Shown piece by piece: positions 11,223 through 13,206 of a DNA stretch of 64,000 nucleotides. Positions within the stretch are counted from its first letter, which is position 1. Every line of letters begins with the position of its first letter. The notes under the pieces were generated by a model, which worked only from the letters and a program-made list of their open reading frames with translations, had not been told where the DNA came from and did not search any database. Source of the stretch: Dyella subtropica (GTDB taxonomy: Bacteria; Pseudomonadota; Gammaproteobacteria; Xanthomonadales; Rhodanobacteraceae); contig NZ_JAPDPD010000017.1 of the NCBI RefSeq assembly GCF_026283965.1, positions 1-64,000 of the forward strand, in the 5' to 3' direction. Position numbers and translations under genes: made by a program.

Positions 11223-12080
<858 letters not shown>

Positions 12081-12108
12081 GTGTGGAACCTCCTGATGTG
12101 GGATCAGC

Positions 12109-12135
12109 TTAGCACTCGGGGACTAGGAGTGCTAA
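12109..12135. promoter_or_regulatory. CIRCE operator (HrcA-binding site) upstream of rpoH
   Basis: The sequence reads TTAGCACTC-N9-GAGTGCTAA, an exact match to the CIRCE consensus: arms 12109-12117 and 12127-12135 with a 9-base spacer. CIRCE is the DNA target of the heat-shock repressor HrcA, usually found before groESL and hrcA-dnaK. It sits 28 bases upstream of the rpoH start codon and 14 bases above its Shine-Dalgarno. The palindrome could also fold in the mRNA leader. Confidence 0.93.
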
Positions 12136-12152
12136 AGCGGCCAAAGAGTTCC
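12124..12152 (-). promoter_or_regulatory. Possible sigma-E-type promoter of rpoH
   Basis: On the minus strand GGAACT (12152-12147) is followed after 18 bases by TCCTA (12128-12124), resembling the sigma-E pattern GGAACTT-N15/16-TCnnA with a spacing one base longer than usual. The E. coli rpoH P3 promoter is also sigma-E dependent. The -10 element and start point would fall inside the CIRCE, so HrcA binding would block it. Confidence 0.4.
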
Positions 12153-12249
12153 AGCCGCTTTACTAAACCCAATAGTACACGAATCAAGAGGATTCGTCCA
12201 CTGCCGCCAGGTACCGCCTCCCCCGACCTTGGGTCGCCAACCTCGACGA

Positions 12250-13206
12250 TCAATATCGCTTGGCCTTGGCGTTGTAGTAGCTCAAGTCGGTCGATTCGAG
12301 CAGGCGACGCATGGCGGGCCCCAGGTGACTAAAGCCGTAGGCCTTCAGGACATCTTTCTTGCCGGGAATCTCGTATTGCCCTGAGATGCCGTCAGCGTAT
12401 TTGCCATCGGCCACCACCCTCTCGGCCATGCCGGGCGGCCGTGGCAACTGTTCCGGCCAATGCTGACAATGCAAAGTCATTTGGGGGCACCAATGCCGAT
12501 TTTCCGGATGGACCGGCTCCCGCTCGACCATGCCGATGATGGCTTTGGGACCGAAGGTCTTGACCACGTCCGCATAGAAGTCCGTCTCCAGCGTATGCCC
12601 CTCGACGGGCACCAGGGTTTCCAGCAGATTCAGGAACCGCGGGTCGTTTTTCGCGATGAAGAACTGCGTGGACAACGTGTCTTTCCGCTTGATGCCGAAA
12701 TCGATCCCGGCACCATTGAGCAGCCTGGCGAGATACCCCTTGAGGCGAACCAACGGGTGCTTCGACTGCCTCCATTTCGGGCGCTGGTCGGTACTCCACG
12801 AGGACGCCGCAACGACGGCCTTGTCGTCACGAGCCAACAAGTCGATATAGCGCTGCAACATGCCCTGGTCGAAAACCCAGGTGTCGGCATCCAGATGAAT
12901 GATGTAATCCGGGTTGTACTTGTCGGCCGCGGCGCGAAATGACTTTTTCACGAGATTCAGCGCGCCATCGATGATGGTCAGCGGCTGGCACCGGACCAGC
13001 TCATCCTCCATGTACGGCTCGTAAGAGGAACCCGAGCAGGCGTGCACAATCGGCCACTGCTCCGGGTAGTTGAGCTTCACGATCTCCATGTTGATTCGCG
13101 CGCAATCCTGGCGCTCGTGGGTGGTCATGCATACGACGACCTTCGGCCGGTTCGCTGCCGGAATCACCTTGCCCGAATCGTCGGCCACCTGGTCTGCTCC
13201 ACTCAT
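12250..13206 (-). CDS. GT-A-fold glycosyltransferase-like protein, unknown substrate
   Basis: A 318-residue protein with a nucleotide-sugar-transferase look: a N-terminal beta strand KVVVCMTTHERQDCARINMEIV, a middle strand ending in DAD (DYIIHLDADTWVFDQG), which resembles the DxD metal/nucleotide motif of GT-A enzymes, and a region GHTLETDFYADVV. No signal peptide or membrane segment is seen, so it is likely cytoplasmic. The start at 13206 (MSGADQV) is chosen because upstream residues lack conservation features; GAGAG lies upstream. It is divergent from the PiuC gene and shares no operon with rpoH. Family assignment is tentative. Confidence 0.6.
   Translation of the reverse strand: MSGADQVADDSGKVIPAANRPKVVVCMTTHERQDCARINMEIVKLNYPEQWPIVHACSGSSYEPYMEDELVRCQPLTIIDGALNLVKKSFRAAADKYNPDYIIHLDADTWVFDQGMLQRYIDLLARDDKAVVAASSWSTDQRPKWRQSKHPLVRLKGYLARLLNGAGIDFGIKRKDTLSTQFFIAKNDPRFLNLLETLVPVEGHTLETDFYADVVKTFGPKAIIGMVEREPVHPENRHWCPQMTLHCQHWPEQLPRPPGMAERVVADGKYADGISGQYEIPGKKDVLKAYGFSHLGPAMRRLLESTDLSYYNAKAKRY

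Follow-up and report, generated by a model that had tools for sequence, protein, structure and literature searches.

The heat-shock sigma factor gene rpoH of Dyella subtropica lies in our window, the whole stretch of 64,000 nucleotides analysed here, below a leader in which a perfect CIRCE, the operator of the repressor HrcA, overlaps a predicted promoter of the sigma-E type. Taking this leader together with its counterparts in other genomes, we conclude that HrcA probably competes with sigma-E RNA polymerase on one composite rpoH promoter-operator. Judged by its spread among the genomes compared, CIRCE at rpoH looks like a widespread way of wiring heat-shock control in bacteria that has drawn little attention. 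The gene and its leader are laid out as follows.

11223..12080, minus strand: rpoH, heat-shock sigma factor sigma-32, 285 aa (NCBIfam equivalog TIGR02392 rpoH_proteo, 414.8 bits, cut-off 323.1).
12089..12094, minus strand: Shine-Dalgarno AGGAGG of rpoH, read from the sequence.
12109..12135, no strand assigned: predicted CIRCE, the HrcA operator, with 18 of 18 arm bases, conserved in relatives.
12124..12128, minus strand: predicted sigma-E type -10, TCCTA (form TCNNA), made up of the last two left-arm bases and the first three spacer bases of CIRCE.
12146..12152, minus strand: predicted sigma-E type -35, GGAACTC, with its GAAC core at -16 from the CIRCE start, a less common spacing.
12159..12179, minus strand: conserved TGTACTATTGGGTTTAGTAAA with an imperfect palindrome, TGTAC-N6-GTWYA, the palindrome recurring in 27 of 37 family leaders.
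12172..12200, minus strand: possible upstream sigma-70 type promoter, TGGACG-N17-TACTAT, a conserved block in family leaders.

The presence of CIRCE above rpoH in the window is confirmed. A search of the window that tolerated up to three mismatches returned 12109-12135 as its sole match, TTAGCACTC-N9-GAGTGCTAA with no mismatch, and 100 dinucleotide-preserving shuffles of the window gave no match at the same tolerance. The preliminary description had placed an exact CIRCE 28 bases above the rpoH start and upstream of the ribosome site, and both statements hold: the distance from the end of the operator to the ATG is 28 bases, the downstream gene is rpoH by profile, and AGGAGG lies between CIRCE and the ATG. 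The closest named RpoH among the matches listed, from which very near records may be missing, is that of Dyella flagellata (92%). A mobile origin of the leader was considered and dropped, as a query of 401 bases returned no plasmid match.

The genome that carries this operator also encodes its repressor. In the assembly (4.95 Mb, 46 contigs, 99.96% complete), there is a single HrcA gene (PF01628, 224.2 bits; TIGR00331, 315.5 bits, cut-off 197.2) and grpE follows it (NF010745, 192 bits, cut-off 184). A genome-wide scan with up to three mismatches found two CIRCE sites only, the one at rpoH with none and a second on another contig with two, which stands above groES (NF001527, 143.4 bits, cut-off 120). 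Thus, where the preliminary description had directed attention to hrcA and to CIRCE copies at groES and dnaK, the repressor gene and the groES copy are present, and the hrcA-grpE locus has no CIRCE (best 11/18). The genome further contains rpoE (TIGR02939, 320.8 bits, cut-off 236.15), and a GAACTT-type match lies above it.

Three ideas that touch on these loci were given up. We do not maintain that CIRCE is in general better kept at rpoH than at groES, groES having been identified in this genome only. Autoregulation of hrcA through CIRCE was rejected because 30 hrcA loci from the 50 hrcA-positive near relatives contain no site, the best reaching 12/18; in the wider class, CIRCE lies within about 500 bases of hrcA in some genomes (G083, G093 and G121). 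A feedback loop through a sigma-32 promoter above hrcA is unsupported, as the strict motif occurs in 0 of 30 loci, with hrcA start codons taken as they stood, and in 0.7% of shuffles.

The operator is kept in near relatives, and it follows the repressor gene. Our near sample comprised 61 genomes, namely this genome and relatives from its genus, family and order, all with an RpoH match, and leaders were scanned, here and in the wider samples, from 400 bases above to 60 bases below the start of that match. In near and named leaders, a match to 14 or more of the 18 arm bases at N9 was taken as CIRCE. In this sample hrcA was found in 50 genomes, and CIRCE stands above rpoH in 47 of these, whereas none of the 11 hrcA-negative genomes has it. 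All 18 arm bases are kept at rpoH in 32 of the 50. The position is also steady: in the 30 leaders of the window's family that contain a site and whose RpoH match begins with an ATG, 24-31 bases (median 28) separate the end of the operator from this ATG. Only two hrcA-positive relatives, G011 and G054, lack any rpoH CIRCE, and the RpoH match of G054 is a distant sigma factor with 40% identity and may not be the orthologue. Outside the count of 47, the hrcA-positive genome G051 (leader L055) carries perfect CIRCE arms above rpoH with an N8 spacer. A looser whole-genome scan, with a degenerate pattern and up to two mismatches, counted two or more CIRCE-like sites in 46 of the 50 hrcA-positive genomes, 35 of which have exactly two. 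The reversed control also matches in some genomes, up to six times in G025, and among the places listed the gene at the second site was identified for this genome alone.

The same coupling holds class-wide. We drew a class sample of 140 genomes, one per family, of which 130 had RpoH and 10 without a match were left out; one genome with two rpoH copies (G089) was counted once by its better leader, so that 131 leaders represent 130 genomes. The search for hrcA covered 128 of them, and the calls for G000 and G037, which are shared with the near sample, were taken from there. At a threshold of 15/18 at N9, CIRCE lies above rpoH in 90 of 98 hrcA-positive genomes and in 5 of 32 without detected hrcA (Fisher 5e-16, a value inflated by relatedness), and 1310 shuffled leaders, which preserve base composition only, reached at most 14/18 with none at 15/18 or more. 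Both hrcA and the rpoH operator thus occur together in 90 of 130 genomes, each from a different family. Two of the five hrcA-negative genomes with a site, G140 and G177, retain a second CIRCE, and hrcA may therefore have been missed in these assemblies, and each of the eight hrcA-positive genomes that have no N9 site at rpoH contains at least one CIRCE-like site elsewhere. Among these eight, G156 (L214) shows an N8 form above rpoH with 15/18. The hrcA-positive G121 has four perfect CIRCE, one of them near hrcA, with none above its detected rpoH, and the two rpoH genes of G089 (L232 and L270) have CIRCE at one only.

Leaders of named bacteria extend the picture. Of 80 named loci 79 were used, L134 being dropped with 2 bases above its match, which together with the 61 relatives makes 140 leaders. 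CIRCE at 14/18 or better is present in 42 of the 79, and full 18/18 copies include those of Nitrosomonas communis, Pandoraea terrigena, Methylocaldum and Pseudoalteromonas luteoviolacea (L082). None of the 24 enteric, Vibrio, Pasteurella-type and similar named leaders has CIRCE, a group that was set by record title after the scan and that does not include L082. Conservation of the palindrome in relatives, on which the preliminary description had made an HrcA role depend, is therefore established, and its implication that the placement of CIRCE at rpoH is unusual has to be reversed, as this placement is the rule in the sampled class where hrcA is present.

Our comparison also bears on the promoter. 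The sigma-E consensus is GGAACTT-N15/16-GTCTGA. Across the 95 class-wide sites, GAAC lies 14-17 bases above the CIRCE start in 63 (51 at -15, 10 at -16 and 2 at -14), and any other offset between -60 and -5 accounts for at most three sites. Counted on from GAAC, a TCNNA -10 falls on the final two bases of the left arm and the three spacer bases that follow. Sites with GAAC have A as their third spacer base in 58 of 63 cases, compared with 14 of 32 for those without (Fisher 5e-7, with kinship among genomes overstating the certainty), and G in 0 of 63 compared with 8 of 32; the remaining spacer positions do not differ at p < 0.01 between the two sets of class-wide sites. Near relatives behave alike: 43 of 47 have A at this base, and GAAC occurs 43 times at -15 or -16. 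The geometry of the rpoH boxes fits the sigma-E consensus. These results give comparative support to the earlier suggestion that a putative sigma-E-like promoter overlaps the operator. In the window the boxes are a near match only, with GGAACTC, TCCTA and a spacing one base over the commonest, and the 32 of 95 sites without GAAC at the expected place indicate that the sigma-E part is not universal.

These observations lead us to a mechanism in which one stretch of DNA would serve both proteins. Sigma-E RNA polymerase would recognise a -35 immediately above CIRCE together with a -10 within it, and transcription would begin close to the right arm, which puts the expected rpoH start at about 12117-12119. 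HrcA bound to CIRCE would cover the -10 and the start region, blocking the sigma-E promoter, and would also obstruct polymerase from any upstream housekeeping promoter. Since simultaneous occupation of this stretch by HrcA and sigma-E polymerase is not expected, occlusion is the simplest reading of repression. HrcA of Bacillus subtilis reportedly requires GroEL to remain active, and HrcA could in this way act as an indirect gauge of free GroEL. Upon heat, damaged protein would occupy GroEL, HrcA would be released, and groESL and rpoH would be freed together, with sigma-E activity setting the amount of rpoH made. One published time course sits poorly with this scheme: under nitrogen starvation of Xylella, rpoH rises twofold at 8 and 12 h, after a fourfold rise of hrcA at 2 h, according to the passages of PMC3224663 that report it. 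As given there, the course does not fit plain HrcA repression, should Xylella have the site.

The competition of HrcA with sigma-E polymerase has to be weighed against another arrangement, in which bound HrcA chiefly obstructs polymerase coming from an upstream sigma-70 type promoter and the sigma-E-like boxes play little or no part in this species. We regard this as possible but unlikely. It draws on a conserved upstream block, TGTACNAT, which is present in 28 of 37 family leaders some 97-121 bases above the RpoH match start and is preceded by T(T/G)GAC in 20 of these 28, and on the class-wide sites at which CIRCE is kept without a GAAC -35; however, a strict sigma-70 scan of 12080-12400 found no promoter, and idle boxes would not be expected to keep so tight a distance between GAAC and CIRCE or to show GAAC associated with the identity of spacer base 3. 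As to the TGTACTATTGGGTTTAGTAAA block, it may combine a -10 with an additional regulator site, and its pattern occurs in the whole genome once exactly and once at two mismatches.

A relic, or a weak HrcA target that leaves rpoH unaffected, is a very unlikely reading of the site. Sigma-32 of E. coli is controlled largely after transcription, and the same could hold here; against this, the arms are fully intact in 32 of 50 hrcA-positive relatives, the rpoH copy in this genome is nearer to consensus than the groES copy (0 and 2 mismatches), and 27 of 32 genomes without detected hrcA have no rpoH site.

Least probable of all is a role of the palindrome in the leader transcript of rpoH, where a hairpin would switch stability or translation, in place of a role as DNA operator: although a 9-pair hairpin is predicted in the transcript near the ribosome site, the site is rare without hrcA, which speaks for DNA binding, a transcript started at the sigma-E promoter would not include the left arm, and the 116-nt leader folds only mildly better than shuffles (z -1.65, with 11 of 200 folding as well). 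Evidence from pairing cuts both ways, as arm position 3 changes from A to G, keeping a G-U pair, in 27 of 95 class-wide sites and shows the mirror change, which gives A-C, in 1, while at arm position 7 a C-C mismatch, which breaks the pair, occurs in 9 of 95.

In the textbook view, which comes from E. coli and Bacillus, sigma-32 and HrcA are treated as two separate ways to run heat shock. Should our reading be correct, the two would form one circuit in many families, with a GroEL-sensing repressor placed over the sigma-32 gene, in many cases at a promoter that the envelope-stress sigma factor recognises. The reading would further predict for many bacteria that rpoH goes up in an hrcA deletion, and more so with sigma-E active. 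The parts shared with the classic HrcA/CIRCE control of groESL and hrcA-grpE-dnaK-dnaJ are the operator sequence, the N9 spacing, the repressor gene and a groES copy in the same genome. The differences are that the target here is a sigma factor gene, that the hrcA-grpE locus is itself without CIRCE, and that a predicted -10 lies within the rpoH operator, whereas the 40 bases upstream of the groES copy in this genome contain no GAAC.

A second point of comparison is P3 of E. coli rpoH, a sigma-E dependent promoter with a GGAACTT type -35 and a TCNNA type -10. Enteric leaders (L094, L107, L118 and L123) show the corresponding GAACTTGTGGATAA...GTCTGA above rpoH. E. coli differs from the genomes discussed above in that it is not among the control genomes with HrcA, and the enteric-type leaders lack CIRCE. 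We lean slightly towards the view that the composite of sigma-E promoter and HrcA operator is the ground state at rpoH in the broad Gammaproteobacteria, including the former Betaproteobacteria, so that envelope stress and GroEL availability would be read at one site; the hrcA-less design of E. coli would then be a secondary simplification that lost the operator along with the repressor and retained the sigma-E promoter. Among hrcA-less leaders without CIRCE, raw motif matches show that L054, L056 and L057 keep GAACTT...TCNNA near rpoH, and L058, L059, L060, L061 and L063 have no GAACTT/TCNNA box close to the gene.

CIRCE at rpoH is not in itself new. A perfect TTAGCACTC-N9-GAGTGCTAA at -51 of rpoH was predicted by genome comparison in Geobacter sulfurreducens (Rodionov 2004, PMC545781), a single delta-proteobacterial case for which the passages of that paper on this site give neither a sigma-E overlap nor a class-wide count of rpoH sites against hrcA. 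As far as checked, the composite form and the class-wide coupling to hrcA are new: the matches listed in a limited literature search contain no description of a sigma-E/CIRCE composite at rpoH or of its distribution, and Permina and Gelfand (2004) may list rpoH sites.

The rpoH leaders of some relatives (L049, L050, L053 and L069) carry a symmetric change of CIRCE, TTAGCAGTC...GACTGCTAA or a near form of it. The GTC of these variants is closer to the sigma-E -10 consensus. Within one genus, hrcA-positive G057 (L049) has such a symmetric site, and G048 (L042), in which no hrcA was detected, has a degraded site and has kept the GAACTT box.
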